A stretch of DNA of 64,000 nucleotides from Alistipes sp. Its GTDB lineage: Bacteria; Bacteroidota; Bacteroidia; Bacteroidales; Rikenellaceae. The stretch lies in contig JAFQRH010000022.1 in the NCBI GenBank assembly GCA_017410165.1, positions 1-64,000 on the forward strand, read 5' to 3'. A program made the position numbers and the translations under genes. How positions within the stretch are numbered: the first letter of the stretch is position 1; every line of letters begins with the position of its first letter. Positions 23,880-44,878 of the stretch are shown one piece after another. Below the pieces are notes generated by a model. It was not told the origin of the DNA, made no database searches, and saw only the letters and a list, made by a program, of their open reading frames with translations.

Positions 23880-24947
23880 CTACTCTGCCTGTGTCGAGCA
23901 ATAGATGCAGCGATATACATCGCCCTCCGAAAGTGAGAACGAGTAATCAACCGGCTCGCAGTTGCAGATACACTTCGGATTCGGACAACGCAGACCTTCA
24001 ACCGCTACGCCCTTATGTGTGGTCATCTCCTTGTCGCGCCACTCCATAAGGCGACAGATGAGGGCCATACGAACGAATTTGCCGTTGCCTACCTGACGGA
24101 AATATGCTGCGCGAGGGTCGGCATCGACCTCTTTGAGAATCTCGCCTACGCGTGGCAGCGGATGCAGAACGGCCATCTTCTCCTTTGCACCCTTCATCTT
24201 CTCGCAATCCAGCACGAAGCAATCCTTTACGCGCTCGTACTCCTCGATGCTTGCAAAACGCTCGCGTTGTACGCGCGTCATATAGAGTACGTCCAACTCG
24301 CCGATAACCTCCTCGATGGATGCCACCTCGCGATACTCCATTCCGAACTTGTCGCACACGTCGTGCTTGATATAGTCGGGCAGTCGCAACTCGTCGGGCG
24401 CAATCAATACGAGTTTCGTACCCTCGTAGCGCGCCATTGCTTTGATGAGCGAGTGAACGGTACGACCGTAGAGCAAATCACCGCACAGACCGATTGTGAG
24501 GTTGTCCAGATGACCGAGTTCGCGTTTAATGGTGAGCAGGTCGGTCAGCGTCTGCGTCGGGTGCGAATGGCTACCGTCACCGGCATTGATAATCGGCACG
24601 GGCGACACGCTTGCAGCATCGAGTGGTGCACCTTCGACGTGGTGGCGCATAGCGATTATGTCGACAAAGTTGCCAACTACGCGAACCGTATCTTCCACGG
24701 TTTCGCCCTTGCTTACCGACGACGATGCGGCATCCGAAAATCCCAGCACATTGCCGCCGAGCTCCATCATTGCTGCCGTAAAACTGAGGCGCGTACGGGT
24801 GCTTGGTTCGTAGAAGAGCGTAGCGAGTTTCTTGCCGTGCATCTTCTCTGCGTATCGGTCGCCATTGGCGATGATGTCCTGCGCCAGAGCGACGATTTCG
24901 TCGGTCTCCTGACGGGTCAGATCGGTAGGGTCTATAAGGTGTCTCAT
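23880..24947 (-). CDS. pyrB: Aspartate carbamoyltransferase with fused PyrI-like zinc domain
   Basis: It condenses carbamoyl phosphate with aspartate. The catalytic part shows the carbamoyl-phosphate loop STRTR (49-53), the SVSKGE loop and HPLPR. The last about 38 of 355 residues form a zinc ribbon with Cys321, Cys326, Cys347 and Cys350 (C-x4-C-x20-C-x2-C). This matches the zinc domain of the regulatory chain PyrI ('CPN..C' then 'C.YC'). The N-terminal nucleotide-binding domain of PyrI is absent, and no separate pyrI gene is in the window. Start ATG at 24947; it is the last gene of the pyr operon. Confidence 0.93.
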   Translation of the reverse strand: MRHLIDPTDLTRQETDEIVALAQDIIANGDRYAEKMHGKKLATLFYEPSTRTRLSFTAAMMELGGNVLGFSDAASSSVSKGETVEDTVRVVGNFVDIIAMRHHVEGAPLDAASVSPVPIINAGDGSHSHPTQTLTDLLTIKRELGHLDNLTIGLCGDLLYGRTVHSLIKAMARYEGTKLVLIAPDELRLPDYIKHDVCDKFGMEYREVASIEEVIGELDVLYMTRVQRERFASIEEYERVKDCFVLDCEKMKGAKEKMAVLHPLPRVGEILKEVDADPRAAYFRQVGNGKFVRMALICRLMEWRDKEMTTHKGVAVEGLRCPNPKCICNCEPVDYSFSLSEGDVYRCIYCSTQAE

Positions 24948-25007
24948 TTTTAGCAAATGTTTTTAAGTTTGTGAATTGTTGTGATATGGCGGATTTATGC
25001 GCGATGG

Positions 25008-25637
25008 CTATTTAATCCACGACTCGTCCGACGGATTGTCACGGAATGCCAAAATGCGCTCCTTCCACTCCTCGGCGATGTATCCCTCTTCGGCTGCAAC
25101 CTCGACAAGCGCATCGAGATTCGAGAGCGAATAGTTCACCGTATTGGCTGCTGCAATGCGCTCTACGCCACGCTTCATACCGTAGGTGAAGATGCTGACG
25201 ATGCCCAACACATCGGCACCCGCCTCACGCAACGCCTCGACAACCTCGATACAACTGCCGCCCGTCGAAATCAAATCCTCGATAACAACGACCTTCGTAC
25301 CCTTGTCCAGACGACCCTCGATGCGGTTTGCGCGACCGTGGTCCTTCGCGCCACTGCGAACGTAGCCCATCGGCAGGTTGAGAATCGTTGCTGCGATAGC
25401 AGCGTGAGCGATGCCGGCGGTCGATGTTCCCATCAGGCACTCGCACTCCGGAAAGTGCTTGCGTACTAACTCTGCCAAACCCGCCTCGACCTTCTCGCGT
25501 ACGCTCAGTGCGGTGAGAATCAGACGGTTGTCGCAATATATCGGGCTTTTGATGCCACTTGCCCAAGTGAATGGTTGCTCCGGACGCAAAAATACGGCGT
25601 TAATCGAGAGCAACTCCTTTGCAATCAGTTTTTCCAT
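25008..25637 (-). CDS. pyrE: Orotate phosphoribosyltransferase
   Basis: It converts orotate plus PRPP to OMP. The 209-residue protein has the PRPP-binding motif 'VVVIEDLISTGGS', the catalytic Lys/Arg region 'YVRSGAKDHG' and the N-terminal 'FTWASGIKSPIYCDNR' loop. It sits between pyrF and pyrB in the operon, 29 bases after pyrF. Confidence 0.96.
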   Translation of the reverse strand: MEKLIAKELLSINAVFLRPEQPFTWASGIKSPIYCDNRLILTALSVREKVEAGLAELVRKHFPECECLMGTSTAGIAHAAIAATILNLPMGYVRSGAKDHGRANRIEGRLDKGTKVVVIEDLISTGGSCIEVVEALREAGADVLGIVSIFTYGMKRGVERIAAANTVNYSLSNLDALVEVAAEEGYIAEEWKERILAFRDNPSDESWIK

Positions 25638-25666: not shown

Positions 25667-26368
25667 TTACTCGTTCAAGAACTCTTTGCAGCAACGCTCA
25701 TACGCAGCCACCGGATTGTCGGCAGCCGTGACCGGACGACCTACAACGATGTAGTCCGAACCGATTTCGCGTGCGCGGGCCGGCGTTGTGATACGTACCT
25801 GATCGTCCTTCGAAGCGTCGGCAAAACGGATACCCGGCGTTACGGTCATAAACTCTGCACCGCAAGCCGTCTTTACGAGTTGTGCTTCGAGTGGCGAACA
25901 AACTACGCCATCCAGACCTGCCTCTTTTGCATTCTCGGCATACTTTGCGATGGTTGCCTCAATCGATGCGCCGATGAGCAACTCGCGCTGCATACGCTCC
26001 TCGCTGGTCGAGGTGAGCTGTGTTACGGCAATGAGCAACGGACGTGTGCCATCCTCGCGCGTAAGACCTTCGACGGCAGCACGCATCATATCGACCGTAC
26101 CTGCTGCGTGGACGTTGGTCATATCGACGTCGAGACGCGAGAGTACCTGCATCGTCTTGCGTACCGTATTCGGAATGTCGTGCAGTTTCAGGTCGAGGAA
26201 TATGCGATGACCGCGCTTCTTAATCTCGCGGACAATCTCCGGACCTTCGGCATAGTAGAGCTCCATACCGATTTTTACAAACGGTTTGCGACCCGTAAAG
26301 CGGTCGAGGAATGCGAGCGTTTGCTCTTTGCTGCTGAAATCGCAGGCGATAATTACATCTTTTGCCAT
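25667..26368 (-). CDS. pyrF: Orotidine 5'-phosphate decarboxylase
   Basis: The last step to UMP. The 233-residue TIM barrel has the signature '[13 protein letters not shown]' with the catalytic Asp/Lys pair. '[17 protein letters not shown]' and '[15 protein letters not shown]' lie near the C-terminus and bind the phosphate. It starts 15 bases after the pyrD stop. Confidence 0.96.
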
Positions 26369-26383: not shown

Positions 26384-27298
26384 TTATTTTACTGCTCCTA
26401 TAATATCACTCAAACGCTCGATGCCGAGTCGTTCCATTACGTCGGGCAACTGCTCGATAATCTCTTTGCAGGCGAACGGATTGCGCAGATTTTCGGCACC
26501 CACCTGTACGGCCGATGCACCTGCCATCATCATCTCTACGACATCTTCGGCAGACGCTACACCGCCACAGCCGATAATCGGAATGTGGCACGCCTGCGCC
26601 ACCTGATAGACCATACGCACGGCAACCGGAAAGATTGCACGACCCGAAAAACCTCCCATCTTGTTGGCTATTACGGGGCGACGGCGTGCAATGTCGATAC
26701 GCATTCCGAGCATCGTATTGATGAGCGTCACACCGTCGGCACCTGCCTCTTCGCAAGCGCGAGCGATAGAGACGATGTCGGTTACGTTTGGCGAGAGTTT
26801 GATGAATACGGGTTTGGTTGTCACCTCCTTTACGGCGCGTGTTACGGCTGCTGCCGACTCGGGCTGCGTGCCGAATGCCATACCGCCATTGTGTACGTTC
26901 GGGCACGATACGTTTACCTCGATGATTTCGACCTGCTCCTGACCATCAATTTTGGCGCAACACTCTTGGTACTCTTCAATCGAGAAACCGCTGATGTTGG
27001 CAATTATCGGCTTGTGGAACACCTTGCGCAACTGCGGTAATTCGTGCGCAATAACGGCATCTATGCCCGGGTTTTGCAGTCCGACAGCGTTAATCATTCC
27101 GCTACTGCACTCCGCAATACGTGGTGTCGGATTGCCGAAACGCGCATCGCGCGTCGTACCCTTTATCGAAATCGAGCCCAACACATCGAGATCATAGACC
27201 TTCGCCATCTCCTCGCCGAAACCGAATGTTCCGCTTGCGGGAATGACCGGATTGTCGAGTTGTACGCCGCATAAATTGACCGAAAGATTCTTTACCAT
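26384..27298 (-). CDS. pyrD: Dihydroorotate dehydrogenase, class 1B catalytic subunit
   Basis: The FMN subunit that oxidises dihydroorotate and passes electrons through PyrK to NAD+. With ATG at 27298 it has 304 residues. The motifs 'NPVIPASGTFGFG', the catalytic Cys in 'VNVSCPNVHNGG' and 'IIGCGGVASAEDVVEMMMAGA' are typical of class 1B. The start codon overlaps the pyrK stop by 7 bases, which implies translational coupling of the two subunits. A longer upstream start would only read into pyrK. Confidence 0.95.
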   Translation of the reverse strand: MVKNLSVNLCGVQLDNPVIPASGTFGFGEEMAKVYDLDVLGSISIKGTTRDARFGNPTPRIAECSSGMINAVGLQNPGIDAVIAHELPQLRKVFHKPIIANISGFSIEEYQECCAKIDGQEQVEIIEVNVSCPNVHNGGMAFGTQPESAAAVTRAVKEVTTKPVFIKLSPNVTDIVSIARACEEAGADGVTLINTMLGMRIDIARRRPVIANKMGGFSGRAIFPVAVRMVYQVAQACHIPIIGCGGVASAEDVVEMMMAGASAVQVGAENLRNPFACKEIIEQLPDVMERLGIERLSDIIGAVK

Positions 27299-28029
27299 AT
27301 CACATCCTCCTTTTTGAATACGGGTCCCTCTTTGCACACACGCTTTGCGCCCGATGCCGTCTGAATCGAACAACCCATACAGATTCCGAAACCGCAACCC
27401 ATTCGCTCCTCCAAACTAACTTCGCCCGGACGGTCGGTTGCTTCGCACAACGCTTTGAGCATCGGCAGCGGACCACACGAGTAGAAGTAGTCGAAGTCGA
27501 TATCGCTCTCTCGGATAGCATCCGTCACAAAGCCCTTGATGCCCGTCGAGCCGTCGGCCGTTGCGATAATCACGTTGGCTCCCGCACGCTCGAACTCCTC
27601 GGCGTAGAATATCTCTTGTTGCGTATTAAAGCCGAGTACGACGCTTACACGCTTGCCTTGCGCAACAAGGTCGCGCGTAAGACGATAGAGCGGAGGAACG
27701 CCGACGCCGCCACCGACAAGCAGCGCGTGCTGACTGCACTGTGCCGAGTCGAATCCGTTACCAAGACCGGTAAGCACATCAAGTCGCGTACCGGCTTTGA
27801 GTGCGGCCATCTGCTCTGTTCCCTTGCCGACAACCTTATATACGAGCGTCAGTCGCCCTTCGTCGAAGTCGCAAACCGAAATCGGACGACGCAGGAAGAG
27901 CCCATCGAGCGAAATCTCGACAAAACTGCCCGCGCGCGTAATCTCCGACGTATCGCCCGTAAGGCGCATCTCATATACGAGAGGTGTCAGCGCACGATTC
28001 GATTCGATTTCCAGAATAACACGTTTCAT
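27292..28029 (-). CDS. pyrK: Dihydroorotate dehydrogenase electron-transfer subunit
   Basis: A 245-residue protein of the ferredoxin-reductase family that carries FAD and a 2Fe-2S cluster and links PyrD to NAD+. 'RRPISVCDF' is the FAD-binding motif and 'LLVGGGVGVPPLY' the NAD site. The cluster cysteines are in 'GCGFGICMGCS' plus the later 'RVCKEGP'. Start ATG at 28029; the gene overlaps pyrD by 7 bases. Confidence 0.94.
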   Translation of the reverse strand: MKRVILEIESNRALTPLVYEMRLTGDTSEITRAGSFVEISLDGLFLRRPISVCDFDEGRLTLVYKVVGKGTEQMAALKAGTRLDVLTGLGNGFDSAQCSQHALLVGGGVGVPPLYRLTRDLVAQGKRVSVVLGFNTQQEIFYAEEFERAGANVIIATADGSTGIKGFVTDAIRESDIDFDYFYSCGPLPMLKALCEATDRPGEVSLEERMGCGFGICMGCSIQTASGAKRVCKEGPVFKKEDVIW

Positions 28030-28042
28030 AACTCTGTCTGCT

Positions 28043-31000
28043 TTACATATCGTAATCTGCATCGATGGTCGAGATGCCGAGCGTAATCTCTTCGAGTACG
28101 TCGAGCAATACGCGCACCGTTTCGAGCGAGGTGAAAATCGTTACATTGTTCTCGACCGCCGCACGACGAATCTCGTAGCCGTCCAAACGGGTATTGTGCT
28201 GGTTGAGGTCGATGGTGTTGATGACGTAGTTCACGTGGCCTCGGCTAATCGAGGTGTAGATGTCGTTGCTGCCCTCGCTGAGTTTGCCCAAGCGGCGAGT
28301 GCGCAGACCGTGCTTGCGCAGGAAGTCTGCCGTACCGGAGGTTGCCTCGATGTTGAAACCGAGGTTGTAGAAACGTCTGATGAGTGGCAGTGCCGCCTCC
28401 TTGTCGCGATCGGCAAGCGTTACGAGAATCGTTCCGTAGTTTGCGATTGCCATACCCGATGCCTGCAACGACTTGTAGAGAGCACGTGTGAGCGAATCGT
28501 CGTAACCGATTGCCTCGCCCGTCGATTTCATCTCCGGCGAGAGGTACGAATCGACACCCTTAATCTTCGCAAACGAGAATGCCGGCGTCTTGACAAAGTG
28601 ACGCTTGCGCTCCTTGCCATATACCTCGGTGATGCCCTGCTCGCGCAACGAATGACCAAGCATTACGCGCGTTGCAATCTTCGCCATCGGCACGTTGGTC
28701 GATTTCGAGAGGAACGGAACCGTACGCGACGAACGCGGATTGACCTCGATGACATACACTTTGTTCTGGTCATCGACAATAAACTGAATATTGTACAGAC
28801 CGACGATGCCGATGGCCTTACCCAGACGCACCGTGTAGTCAATCATCTGCTGCTTAACCTCGTCAGTCAAACTGAACGAAGGATAGACGCTTATCGAGTC
28901 GCCGGAGTGGATACCCGTACGCTCGACGTGCTCCATAATGCCCGGAATAAAGACATTCTCGCCGTCGCAGATGGCATCGACCTCCGCCTCACGACCCATA
29001 ATGTACTTATCGACCAATACGGGCGAATCCTCGCTGACCTCTACGGCGTTGTGCAGATAGTGGCGCAGCGCCTGCTCGTTGCCGACAATCTGCATTGCAC
29101 GACCACCCAACACGAAACTTGGACGAACGAGCACCGGATAGCCGATGCGCTCGGCCGCCTTTACACCCTCCTCGATTTCGGTAACGGCCTGTGCCTGTGG
29201 TTGCGGAATACCCACCTCGCGCATAATCTGCTCGAAGAGCTTACGGTCCTCCGCCTTGTCGATTGCTTCAAGGTCGGTGCCGATAATCTTGACACCCATC
29301 TGTACGAGCGGTTTTGCAAGGTTGATGGCGGTCTGTCCGCCGAGCGTTACGATAACACCCTCCGGCTGCTCCATACGGATTACGTTCATTACGTTTTCGA
29401 CCGTCAGTGGTTCGAAATAGAGTTTGTCCGATATGGTGTAGTCGGTCGATACGGTCTCTGGATTGTTGTTGATGATGATTGCCTCATATCCCGCCTCGCG
29501 GATTGCCCAAATGGCGTGTACGGTCGAGTAGTCGAACTCCACACCCTGACCGATACGAATCGGACCCGAGCCGAGTACGACAATCTTGCGACGCGTGCTT
29601 ACGACGGACTCGTTCTCCTGTTCGTAGGTCGAGTAGTAGTACGGCACGTCGGCTTTGCACGCTCCGGCACACGTGTCAATCATCTTATATACCGGCGTGA
29701 CGCCCTCCTTTTCGCGCAGTGCGAAGACTTCTTGCTCGGTCATACCCCAAAGCTGACCGATGAACTTATCACCGAAGCCCATACGCTTCGCCTCGCGCAA
29801 CACCTCCTTGTTGGCTTTGTTTGCGCGAACGACCTCCTCCATACGGATAATGCGCTTGAACTTTTCGAGGAAGAGCATATCAATCTTCGTGCGGTCGTAT
29901 ATGAGCGATCGATCGACACCGCGACGCAACAACTCTGCAATGGCGTAGATGCGGTCATCGGTGCTGCGCGTGATGTATGCGAGCATATCCTGAATCGACA
30001 TCTCGTCGAACTTCTTGTGGTGCAAGTGGCATACGCCCGTTTCGAGCGAACGGAACGCTTTCAGGATACTCTCTTCCAGCGTGCGACCGATGCTCATCAC
30101 CTCGCCCGTTGCCTTCATCTGCGTACCAAGTTCGTTGCTTGCCTCGCTGAACTTATCGAATGGGAAGCGTGCAACCTTCGTCACTACGTAGTCCAAAGCC
30201 GGCTCCGCACACGCAGGGGCGGTTGCGAGCATAATCTCGTCGAGCGTCATACCGATAGCAACCTTTGCCGTTACACGTGCAATAGGGTAGCCGCTGGCCT
30301 TCGATGCGAGGGCCGACGAACGCGACACACGCGGATTGACCTCGATGATATAGTATTTGAACGAGAGTGGGTCGAGCGCAAACTGTACGTTGCAACCACC
30401 CTCGATGCGAAGTGCGCGGATAAGGCGCAGTGCACTGTCTCGTAACATCTGGAACTCTTTGTTCGAGAGCGTCTGTGCCGGAGCAACAACGACCGAGTCG
30501 CCGGTGTGGATGCCCACCGGATCGACATTCTCCATACTGCATATTGCGATGGCGGTGTCGTTCTTGTCGCGCATAACCTCAAACTCAATCTCCTTGTAGC
30601 CCTTGATACTCTTCTCGACCAGCACCTGATGTACGGGCGATACGGCGAGTGCGTTACGCATCAACTCGCGCAACTGCTCCTCGTTGTCGGCAAAACCACC
30701 ACCCGAACCACCGAGCGTAAATGCCGGACGAAGTACAACCGGATAGGTGATTTTCTTGGCAACCTCGACCGCCTCCTCGACCGAATATACGATTTCGGAC
30801 GGGATGACCGGCTCGCCGAGTCGCAAACACAACTCTTTGAAGAGTTCGCGGTCCTCGGCCTGCTCGATGCTCTCGAACGATGTGCCGAGAATCTCCACCT
30901 GACACTCTTCGAGAATACCCTTCTTGGCGAGTTGTACGGCGAGGTTAAGACCGGTCTGACCACCCAGACCCGGAACGATGGCGTCGGGACGCTCGTAGCG

Positions 31001-31234
31001 AATAATCTTTGCGACGTACTCCAATTTCAGCGGCTCCATATAGACCTTGTCGGCAATGTGGACGTCGGTCATAATGGTTGCCGGATTGGAATTGACGAGT
31101 ATAACCTCGTAGCCCTCCTCTTTGAGTGCGAGGCAGGCCTGTGTACCTGCATAGTCGAATTCGGCTGCCTGACCAATCACAATCGGGCCCGAGCCGATTA
31201 CCATAACCTTCTTTATATCTGTTCTCTTTGGCAT
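28043..31234 (-). CDS. carB: Carbamoyl-phosphate synthase large subunit
   Basis: The synthetase subunit of 1063 residues has two homologous ATP-grasp halves. Each begins with a GSGPI(V/R)IGQ(A/G)xEFDY motif and each contains its own ATP-grasp lid. The C-terminal MGS-like domain binds allosteric effectors. It makes carbamoyl phosphate from bicarbonate, ammonia and two ATP. Nothing looks degenerate here, in contrast to its partner CarA, 5 bases upstream. It is the third gene of the pyr operon. Confidence 0.97.
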
Positions 31235-31239
31235 AGTGG

Positions 31240-32319
31240 TTACTCCTCCATCAATTTAACGAATTTATCGAAAAGATATGCGCTGTCTTGCGGACCCGGT
31301 GCGCCCTCCGGATGATACTGTACCGAGAATACCTTGTCGCGACGACACTCGACGCCGACAATGCTGCCGTTGAGTACGTTCACGTGCGACACCTCCAATG
31401 GTGTGCCGGCGAGCGACTCGGGGTCGATTGTGTAGCCGAAGCCCATACTTGCCGTCTCGATATGGTTTGTCGTGAGATTGCGTACCGGAACACAACCCGC
31501 ATAGTTGCCGAACTTCTGCTTGGTGACCTTCGCTCCGTACGAGAGGGCGATGAGCAGGTGTCCGAGATTGATGCCGAACATCGGTAACTCGCCGTGCAAC
31601 TTCTCGATGAGCGAAGCAACCTCCGGAACATCGTACGGACTACCCGGACCGTTCGAGATGAATACACCGTGCGGATTGAACGCCATAATCTCTTCCAATG
31701 GCGTGTCAAACGGAACAATCACCACGTTGCAACCTCTGCGATTCAGCGCGCGGATGGTGTTGTACTTGATTCCGCAGTCGATGGCCACTACGTCAAAGCG
31801 GTGGTTAGGCGTACGCGAATACCAACGCTTGCGACAACTTACGCGACGCACGACATCGTGGCTCTCTGGCGTCGAGGCGATGAGTGCCAATGCCTCCTCT
31901 TTCGGCATATCGGCATCGACAATGGCTGCTCGTTGGCAACCCTCGTCGCGGATGATGCGTGTGAGCATTCGTGTATCGACACCGCTGATGCCCGGCACGT
32001 TGTGCTCCTCCATCACCTCGGCAATTGTCTTCGTGTAGCGGAAGTTGCTCGGCGTGTCGCAGTATTCGCGCACGATAAGCGCACCGATATGGAGCGTACG
32101 TGTCTCAAAATCCTCATCCGTGATACCGTAGTTGCCAATTAACGGATAGGTCATCACGACCATTTGGTCGGTGTACGACAAATCGGAGAGAATCTCCTGA
32201 TAGCCGACGACACCGGTGTTGAAAACGATTTCGCATACGGTCGTGCGGTTTGCACCGAAGCCGAAGCCGTAGAACTCGGAACCGTTCTCCAAAACTAACT
32301 TTTTGTCGGGTTGTTTCAT
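31240..32319 (-). CDS. carA: Carbamoyl-phosphate synthase small subunit lacking the glutaminase Cys
   Basis: In most organisms this 359-residue subunit hydrolyses glutamine and channels ammonia to CarB. The N-terminal CarA domain is normal ('[20 protein letters not shown]'). In the class I amidotransferase domain the nucleophile elbow reads FGINLGHLL, where the family has GICLGHQ. The catalytic Cys is therefore Asn251 and the nearby glutamine-binding Gln is Leu. His336 and Glu338 of the triad remain ('QYHPEG'). The family 'SQNHGF' loop is also altered ('SMGFGY'). The reading frame is intact. The subunit probably cannot use glutamine and may leave CarB ammonia-dependent. Confidence 0.93.
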
Positions 32320-32335
32320 CTGTTTGTATATTTTG

Positions 32336-33610
32336 CTATTTTTCGTTCCAAACTTTTTTGCCGCCGAACAGCGTCATCCGGCAACGTCCATACACCTCCA
32401 TACCCTCGAACGGAGTCGCTTTGCCTGCCGAGAGAAATTCGCGACTGTCGATTACGTACGGGGTTGTGATGTCGAAGAGTGCGATGTCGGCACGCTCGCC
32501 CACGCGTAGGCCGCCTCCGAGTCGGAATATGCGACGCGGATTGTCACACAAGAGCGCGATGGCGTGCTCCAACGAGATTTTGCCCGTGCGCACCAAATGG
32601 GTATATACCACCGCAAAGCAGGTTTCTAAACCGACAACGCCCATTGCGCTGGCTTTCAATCCGCGCGACTTCTCTTCGGCTGTGTGAGGGGCGTGGTCTG
32701 TGGCAATAACCTCGATTGTGCCATCCTGCACACCTGCAATAAGTGCCTCTCGGTCCTTCGCACCGCGCAACGGCGGATTCATCTTGAAGCGGCCATCCTC
32801 TTGCAGGTCGGCGTCGGTCAGCACCAGGTAGTGTGGGCCTGTCTCGCAAGTTATGTGGTCGCAAGTGCGTTTGGCATTGCGTATGATTTCGACACTCTCT
32901 GCCGTCGATATGTGGCAGACGTGGTATCTGCACGCTGTCTGTGCGGCGAGTTGTACGTCGCGAGCAATCTGCCCCCATTCGCTCTCCGAGCAGATGCCTT
33001 TATGACCGTGCTCTCGGGCATACTCGCCATCGTGGATGTAACCTGCGTGCAGTAGCGAATTATCCTCGCAGTGAGCCGCTACAATGCCGTCTGCCGCTGC
33101 GATTCTCGTCATCGCCTCGCGCATAACCTCCTCGTGCTGTATGCCGCTTCCATCGTCCGAAAAGCCGACCGACAGCGGGCGGAGTTGCTCGACATCGACA
33201 ATCTCGCGTCCGGCGCGCTCGCGCGTAATGGTTGCGTAAGGGCGTACCTCTACGACCGCCTGTTCGTCTATGAGGCGTTGTTCGATGGCAATCGTCTCCG
33301 GTGCATCCGGTGCGGGCAGCAGGTTAGGCATTGCGCATACGGTGGTATATCCGCCACGAGCCGCTGCCTTTGTTCCGCTCTCGATAGTCTCCTTTGCCGA
33401 ATAGCCCGGTTCGCGCAGATGGACGTGCACGTCGGCCAAGCCGTATGTCACGATGCAACCCGTGGCGTCGATGACCTCGGTATCGCCCTCTGGCGCAATC
33501 TCGCCGCCGATTTCGGCAATCACTCCGTCACACACAAGCAGGTCGCCCGTCGTGGCATTGCCGACGCCTACAAGCAGGCCGTTGCGCAGTAATATACTCT
33601 TTTTGTCCAT
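32336..33610 (-). CDS. pyrC: Dihydroorotase
   Basis: It cyclises carbamoyl aspartate to dihydroorotate. The 424-residue class I enzyme has the metal ligands of 'HVHLREPG' (His62, His64), downstream histidines in 'AHCEDNSLL' and 'HVCHIST', and the catalytic Asp in 'ATDHAPHT'. It is the first structural gene of the pyr operon. Its ATG follows the attenuator terminator by only 16 bases. Confidence 0.95.
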   Translation of the reverse strand: MDKKSILLRNGLLVGVGNATTGDLLVCDGVIAEIGGEIAPEGDTEVIDATGCIVTYGLADVHVHLREPGYSAKETIESGTKAAARGGYTTVCAMPNLLPAPDAPETIAIEQRLIDEQAVVEVRPYATITRERAGREIVDVEQLRPLSVGFSDDGSGIQHEEVMREAMTRIAAADGIVAAHCEDNSLLHAGYIHDGEYAREHGHKGICSESEWGQIARDVQLAAQTACRYHVCHISTAESVEIIRNAKRTCDHITCETGPHYLVLTDADLQEDGRFKMNPPLRGAKDREALIAGVQDGTIEVIATDHAPHTAEEKSRGLKASAMGVVGLETCFAVVYTHLVRTGKISLEHAIALLCDNPRRIFRLGGGLRVGERADIALFDITTPYVIDSREFLSAGKATPFEGMEVYGRCRMTLFGGKKVWNEK

Positions 33611-33626: not shown

Positions 33627-33657
33627 TAAAAAACAGGCGACCCAGTTAGGCCGCCTG
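33627..33657 (-). terminator. Attenuator terminator of the pyr operon
   Basis: CAGGCG (33634-33639) pairs with CGCCTG (33652-33657). The stem extends through two more G-C pairs past one mismatch, and on the minus strand it is followed by TTTTTT. It lies upstream of pyrC, between promoter and first gene, where a terminator must be regulated. The stop codon of the leader ORF (33646-33648) lies in its loop. Confidence 0.85.
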
Positions 33658-33795
33658 AAAATTAGACAATATATTTGCGTTTGCGAACAAACAATCCACC
33701 ATACCACCACCGAGAGGTCGCTGACGCTTGACAATATACCCCGACGATTGAGTAACAGAGATCATTGGCGATATGTTGTGCGCAACGTACATCAT
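33646..33795 (-). CDS. pyr operon leader peptide (49 residues)
   Basis: An ORF of 49 codons plus stop begins with two consecutive ATG codons, a few bases beyond the expected transcription start. It ends with TAA inside the loop of the attenuator. The peptide begins MMYVAHNISP and ends NILSNFQAA; no domain is recognisable. About 35 bases upstream of the terminator the transcript can form a small GTTTG-TTCG-CAAAC hairpin, a possible pause site, followed by a U/A-rich stretch. Position and geometry resemble E. coli pyrL ahead of pyrBI. Translation itself is inferred. Confidence 0.6.
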   Translation of the reverse strand: MMYVAHNISPMISVTQSSGYIVKRQRPLGGGMVDCLFANANILSNFQAA

Positions 33796-33815
33796 AAGGT
33801 GATACTTGATTTGTG

Positions 33816-33845
33816 CAAAGGTAGAAAATTTTTCTCTTCTTTCAA
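33816..33845 (-). promoter_or_regulatory. Promoter of the pyr operon
   Basis: On the minus strand: TTG, exactly 19 bases, TACCTTTG. It places transcription start about 10-20 bases before the leader ORF and about 200 bases before pyrC. Confidence 0.7.
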
Positions 33846-44845: not shown

Positions 44846-44878
44846 AAAAAGCATCGGGCCGAAACCCGATGCTTTTTT
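44846..44878 (+). terminator. Terminator of the GLUG lipoprotein gene
   Basis: AAAAAGCATCGGG pairs with CCCGATGCTTTTTT around a short loop, 22 bases beyond the stop codon. Confidence 0.85.

Follow-up and report, generated by a model that had tools for sequence, protein, structure and literature searches.

The pyrC gene of Alistipes is preceded by a short leader open reading frame (ORF) that ends at the hairpin of an intrinsic terminator, and comparison within the genus confirmed that this arrangement is real and beyond chance. Promoter, open frame, stop position, terminator and a U-rich stretch ahead of the hairpin are all conserved genus-wide. Judged from these sequence features, the leader is likely to act as a translation-coupled, UTP-sensed transcription attenuator controlling a complete UMP operon, in which the place where translation ends would matter and the peptide sequence would not. 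The locus was analyzed in a 64-kb stretch of Alistipes DNA, referred to here as the window, and in its relatives.

Leader and operon in the window

All features of the locus lie on the minus strand. The promoter (33816 to 33845) consists of TTG (33845-33843), a measured spacer of 19 bases and TACCTTTG (33823-33816), and both its coordinates and its spacer agree with the preliminary description. This TTG-19-TACCTTTG element is taken to be a Bacteroidota-type promoter driving the leader ORF upstream of pyrC. The leader ORF (33795-33646), identified from the sequence and from conservation of its frame in relatives, comprises the 49 codons and the two initial ATGs (ATGATG) described earlier, ends with TAA (33648-33646) and translates as MMYVAHNISPMISVTQSSGYIVKRQRPLGGGMVDCLFANANILSNFQAA. 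The rho-independent terminator reported ahead of pyrC is likewise present (33628 to 33657), with a 10-bp stem (33657-33634; 7 of the 10 base pairs are G-C), a loop of 4 and a folding energy of -17.4 kcal/mol, followed by six U (TTTTTT at 33633-33628); pyrC starts at 33610, 17 nt past the end of this U-run. The earlier placement of the stop codon in the terminator loop is nearly exact, the TAA being formed by the last base of the hairpin 5' arm and the first two loop bases, so that only its first base still belongs to the arm.

Just before the hairpin lies the A/U-rich stretch AAATATATTGTCTAATTTT (33658 to 33676), which is proposed as a UTP-sensitive pause region. In the window this stretch is modest, with 40% T in 25 nt, and weaker than in the genus relatives, where the U/A-rich stretch of the preliminary description proved to be a genus-wide feature. 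The GTTTG-TTCG-CAAAC hairpin (33679 to 33692), a possible pause site, also exists as described, though it is small and was not conserved as such across the leaders.

Eight genes follow the leader, all assigned by NCBIfam: pyrC, dihydroorotase (32336 to 33610), carA and carB, the small and large subunits of carbamoyl-phosphate synthase (31240 to 32319 and 28043 to 31234), pyrK, dihydroorotate dehydrogenase electron transfer subunit (27292 to 28062), pyrD, dihydroorotate dehydrogenase (26384 to 27397), pyrF, orotidine-5'-phosphate decarboxylase (25667 to 26368), pyrE, orotate phosphoribosyltransferase (25008 to 25637), and pyrB, aspartate carbamoyltransferase, the last of the run (23880 to 24956). 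Together they encode the whole UMP pathway, and neighboring genes overlap or are separated by gaps of at most 51 nt. Elsewhere in the window one further promoter-terminator-gene match was detected (44846-44878), the arrangement of which is not that of a leader.

Conservation across the genus

Upstream regions of pyrC were collected from 132 genomes of the same genus. The pyrC gene was chosen as the anchor because the leader peptide lacks recognizable relatives: a homology search with the window peptide in 61 genus genomes returned no convincing relative, since the peptide turns over. A terminator was located directly before pyrC in 131 of the 132 regions, and each of these 131 also has the exact motif TAnnTTTG upstream of its leader. 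The sole genus member without it (L020, genome G002) carries a repeated sequence in place of the leader before pyrC.

Leaders were scored for an ORF with an ATG or GTG start and a stop from -9 to +15 nt relative to the 5' end of the hairpin, and the chance level was obtained from 200 dinucleotide-preserving shuffles of the leaders. Such an ORF, 26-49 codons in length, was present in 123 of the 131 terminator-bearing leaders (shuffles: mean 22.3, maximum 31); the genomes are related by kinship, so these counts are not independent trials. A simpler rule, which accepts only the first ATG downstream of the promoter, gave a frame ending at the hairpin in 102 of 131 leaders (shuffles: mean 9.4, maximum 17). 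In the 123 leaders, the other two frames were open across the same span in just 7 and 20 cases. In five of the eight remaining leaders (L004, L046, L066, L110 and L132) the frame continues through the hairpin. The preliminary description had named relatives that keep the terminator while losing the frame as evidence against its reading; the comparison of 132 relatives did not bear this out, since frame, stop position and terminator are kept and the peptide changes.

Stop offsets took 18 different values, mainly -4 to -7 and +8, with the mode 4 nt before the hairpin, and all three stop codons were used among the genus leaders. The stop has thus stayed near the hairpin although the codon itself has shifted, and one such shift separates the window (+12) from its nearest relative L040 (-4), the PyrC proteins of the two being 87% identical. 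The gap from hairpin to pyrC is short (median 13 nt), and a promoter motif was seen there in just 3 leaders; expression of pyrC and the operon should therefore depend on read-through. RNAalifold recovered the terminator, with compensatory changes, as the sole consensus structure.

The leader peptides themselves were unrecognizable between sub-groups, and the arrangement was nonetheless retained. pN/pS, computed on 35 disjoint pairs of related leaders, was 0.60 in frame versus 1.0 and 0.87 off-frame, a pattern that suggests selection on the frame with a weakly constrained product (weak purifying selection). Together with the codon-level biases described below, this ratio is indirect evidence that the leader may be translated. 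In the alignment of one sub-group, the block TGTTTTTAATTGATATT-GCGGCT was nearly invariant and the body of the ORF variable. Single-linkage clustering chained 105 of the 123 leader peptides into one group and gave no basis for treating them as independent.

Base composition and codon choice change toward the hairpin. T makes up 51-62% (in bins of five) of the 20 nt preceding it throughout the genus and 28% at -26 to -100, and 109 of 123 leaders have a run of four or more T in the 45 nt nearest the hairpin, compared with 32 of 123 in the next 45 nt. Phe is encoded by TTT in 74% of cases within the last ten codons versus 44% earlier, and the corresponding proportions for Val GTT are 135:17 near the end of the ORF and 75:73 earlier. 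Local hairpins upstream had a mean energy of -6.8 kcal/mol as against -5.7 kcal/mol in codon shuffles; this small excess of stability may reflect pause hairpins, and the signal is not strong. A GCCCGACA-GGGC hairpin about 85 nt before the terminator recurs in several leaders of L002 and L041-L055 and is a candidate pause hairpin; the leader peptides of this sub-group carry CPT-GYESAQVAPQPLLSN.

Proposed mechanism and rival explanations

In the mechanism favored here, RNA polymerase would start just past TACCTTTG and the leader ORF would be translated at once. With plentiful UTP, polymerase would pass quickly over the U-rich stretch, the ribosome would lag, the hairpin would fold and transcription would stop before pyrC. 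With low UTP, polymerase would pause in the U-rich stretch and the ribosome would catch up; with polymerase on the U-run, a ribosome at the stop codon would then cover the hairpin's 5' arm, the terminator would fail and all eight genes would be transcribed. Leader translation, pausing, UTP as the signal and read-through are what we infer from sequence comparison, and by this measure the Alistipes leader has every sequence element that the UTP mechanism of the pyrL type needs. In vitro reconstitution of pyrL showed that polymerase pauses on the U-rich template at low UTP and that a coupled ribosome blocks folding of the terminator (PMC10135430; see also PMC5021804). In Escherichia coli, termination dropped from about 90% to less than 10% when the stop codon was placed 5 bp instead of 28 bp ahead of a terminator, and the effect was lost when the stop lay beyond 27 nt or when translation was uncoupled (PMC4824070). 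In the Alistipes leaders a median of 37 nt separates the last sense codon from the end of the U-run, by our estimate about as far as a ribosome trailing polymerase would reach.

The leader combines features of the E. coli pyrBI and rph-pyrE attenuators and has no sequence relation to either. Like pyrBI, with its 44-codon PyrL, it has a dedicated short leader ORF, a terminator before the first pyr gene and a U-rich coding stretch before the hairpin, and pyrimidine genes would be under its control (PMC10135430, PMC5021804). Whereas the pyrBI leader ORF extends to 47 nt beyond the hairpin start, the Alistipes frames stop at -9 to +15 nt; an ORF of the PyrL type, running through the terminator and ending near the next gene, was not found outside the five exceptions with a continuing frame. 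The E. coli attenuator also acts on pyrBI only, whereas the Alistipes one precedes all eight UMP genes. A stop closely preceding the hairpin is instead shared with rph-pyrE: the spacing is 7 nt for the wild-type rph frame and has a mode of 4 nt in Alistipes, and E. coli strains with a more distant rph stop under-express pyrE (PMC2784333). There the leader is the full-length enzyme gene rph, in contrast to the dedicated, fast-changing ORF of 26-49 codons in Alistipes. The pyrBI-like logic proposed in the preliminary description is well supported by the comparative evidence, with the correction that stop placement is nearer to rph-pyrE than to pyrBI. The E. coli pyrE hairpin GGCGACT-GATG-AGTCGCC (L266, 740-1000) has nearly the same letters as GGCGACT-CTTTG-AGTCGC in the Alistipes terminators of L127 and L112, which is probably convergence or common terminator composition.

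The signal read by a translation-coupled attenuator might also be something other than UTP, namely translation status or growth rate, with the U-rich stretch slowing polymerase constitutively. The stop-at-hairpin geometry would by itself suffice for translation coupling (PMC4824070), but we regard this alternative as unlikely, given that the U-rich stretch is conserved directly before the hairpin, that T-ending codons are chosen there and that the genes controlled are exactly those of the UMP pathway.

Glutamine codons call for separate consideration. They make up 8.9% of codons in the middle of the genus leaders (among them those of the window, L002, L017 and L026) in frame versus 3% off-frame (Asn codons are raised too), and at least one is present in 119 of 123 leaders, where about 74 would be expected. 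Two inputs might accordingly be combined, UTP via polymerase pausing and glutamine via the ribosome: the Gln codons lie mostly 30-80 nt ahead of the hairpin, and a ribosome held up on them would not prevent the terminator from folding. Glutamine is the nitrogen donor of CarAB, encoded in the same operon. Support for such dual sensing is weak, given the kinship among the species and the lack of Gln in some peptides of other genera, and we think it distinctly improbable.

The same in-frame Gln codons are what would be expected of an amino-acid attenuator of the trp/his type, sensing for example arginine or glutamine (CarAB also serves arginine synthesis and consumes glutamine), with which the Alistipes leader has an ORF plus a terminator in common. 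Tandem control codons are absent, though, the longest run of a single residue in the 123 leaders being 3 and most being 2. Complementarity between the leader and the 5' arm of the terminator had a mean z of 0.04 relative to codon shuffles, giving no sign of an antiterminator, and the terminator alone formed a consensus structure. With the stop at the terminator, moreover, full translation would antiterminate, a sign opposite to that in trp. An attenuator of this type is very unlikely.

We consider it highly improbable that the ORF is an independent gene for a small protein, closed by a terminator of its own, and just happens to adjoin the pyr operon: the pN/pS value does indicate some constraint on the peptide, but the arrangement persists among sub-groups whose peptides cannot be recognized in one another, and the space before pyrC is mostly too short for a promoter.

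Control by a protein or ligand, as by PyrR or a riboswitch, would make the ORF incidental. Long pyr operons of Firmicutes that are controlled by PyrR likewise carry a terminator in the 5' leader; in Alistipes, PyrR (among the Pribosyltran matches checked) and its binding structure were not found and a translated ORF is predicted instead. An Rfam 15 search of the leader gave nothing above the gathering threshold and three chance-level matches at a permissive one. The two best unassigned Pribosyltran matches in the genome were HGPRT and uracil phosphoribosyltransferase (Upp), neither being PyrR; among the Pribosyltran matches of the genome, individual annotation covered these two and the window pyrE. 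With the terminator as the only conserved RNA structure and an open frame far beyond chance, such control can scarcely be credited.

Breadth and significance

The same plan was found at other loci with this type of PyrC that carry Bacteroidales or Bacteroidia labels (outside the genus, taxonomy is that of unverified MAG labels), and the leader-attenuator design therefore appears not to be confined to this genome or genus. In L203 the leader peptide is MLSMDFISPSFGAGMAGEVRFSFRI, with the stop at -5; other stops lie at -5 (L227), -8 (L195) and +12 (L212 and L239), and in L233, L240 and L261 the stop is at +2 or +3 and the ends of the ORFs are U-rich. Some of the leader ORFs outside the genus have just 8-17 codons. 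In Clostridia, almost none of the relatives of this PyrC has a terminator at that position. Among pyrB loci of other Bacteroidales families, promoter and terminator were present together in 16 of 68, and 10 of these 16 pass a loose ORF criterion, several of the ORFs being very short. An order-wide leader rule for pyrB in Bacteroidales is not claimed, the picture being mixed and the plan occurring in a minority of loci. At L162, L167, L176 and L184, pyrB follows a terminator, and shortly before this terminator the upstream gene has its stop codon, an order reminiscent of E. coli rph-pyrE.

The named relatives of the window PyrC come mainly from MAGs of Alistipes and Rikenellaceae, many of them from ruminant guts. 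The window PyrC (32336-33610; compared in L204-L262) is 50-59% identical to clostridial dihydroorotases and about 30% identical to the best PyrC-like match in the other Bacteroidales families sampled. Since it is closer to the clostridial than to the sampled Bacteroidales homologues, these identities suggest gene or operon exchange with Clostridia.

In the open-licence literature we found no earlier description of such a pyr leader in Bacteroidota. Attenuators with leader peptides responding to amino acids have been suggested for Flavobacterium psychrophilum (PMC9723704), and sORFs resembling leader peptides in general were noted in the transcriptome of Bacteroides thetaiotaomicron (PMC7366714). 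Ribosomes of Bacteroidota do not use Shine-Dalgarno sites (PMC9976891).

A leader gene with a conserved frame and stop position and a protein sequence that turns over is a pattern that homology-based surveys of small proteins will miss. If the favored mechanism is true, Bacteroidota, a dominant phylum of the gut, would possess a repressor-free UTP switch over the entire UMP pathway, the logic of which equals that of the E. coli attenuators while the sequence is not shared. To our knowledge, close coupling of transcription and translation has not been established in Bacteroidota. The proposed switch needs a ribosome close behind polymerase, and the leader would thus offer a natural sensor for testing coupling in this phylum.
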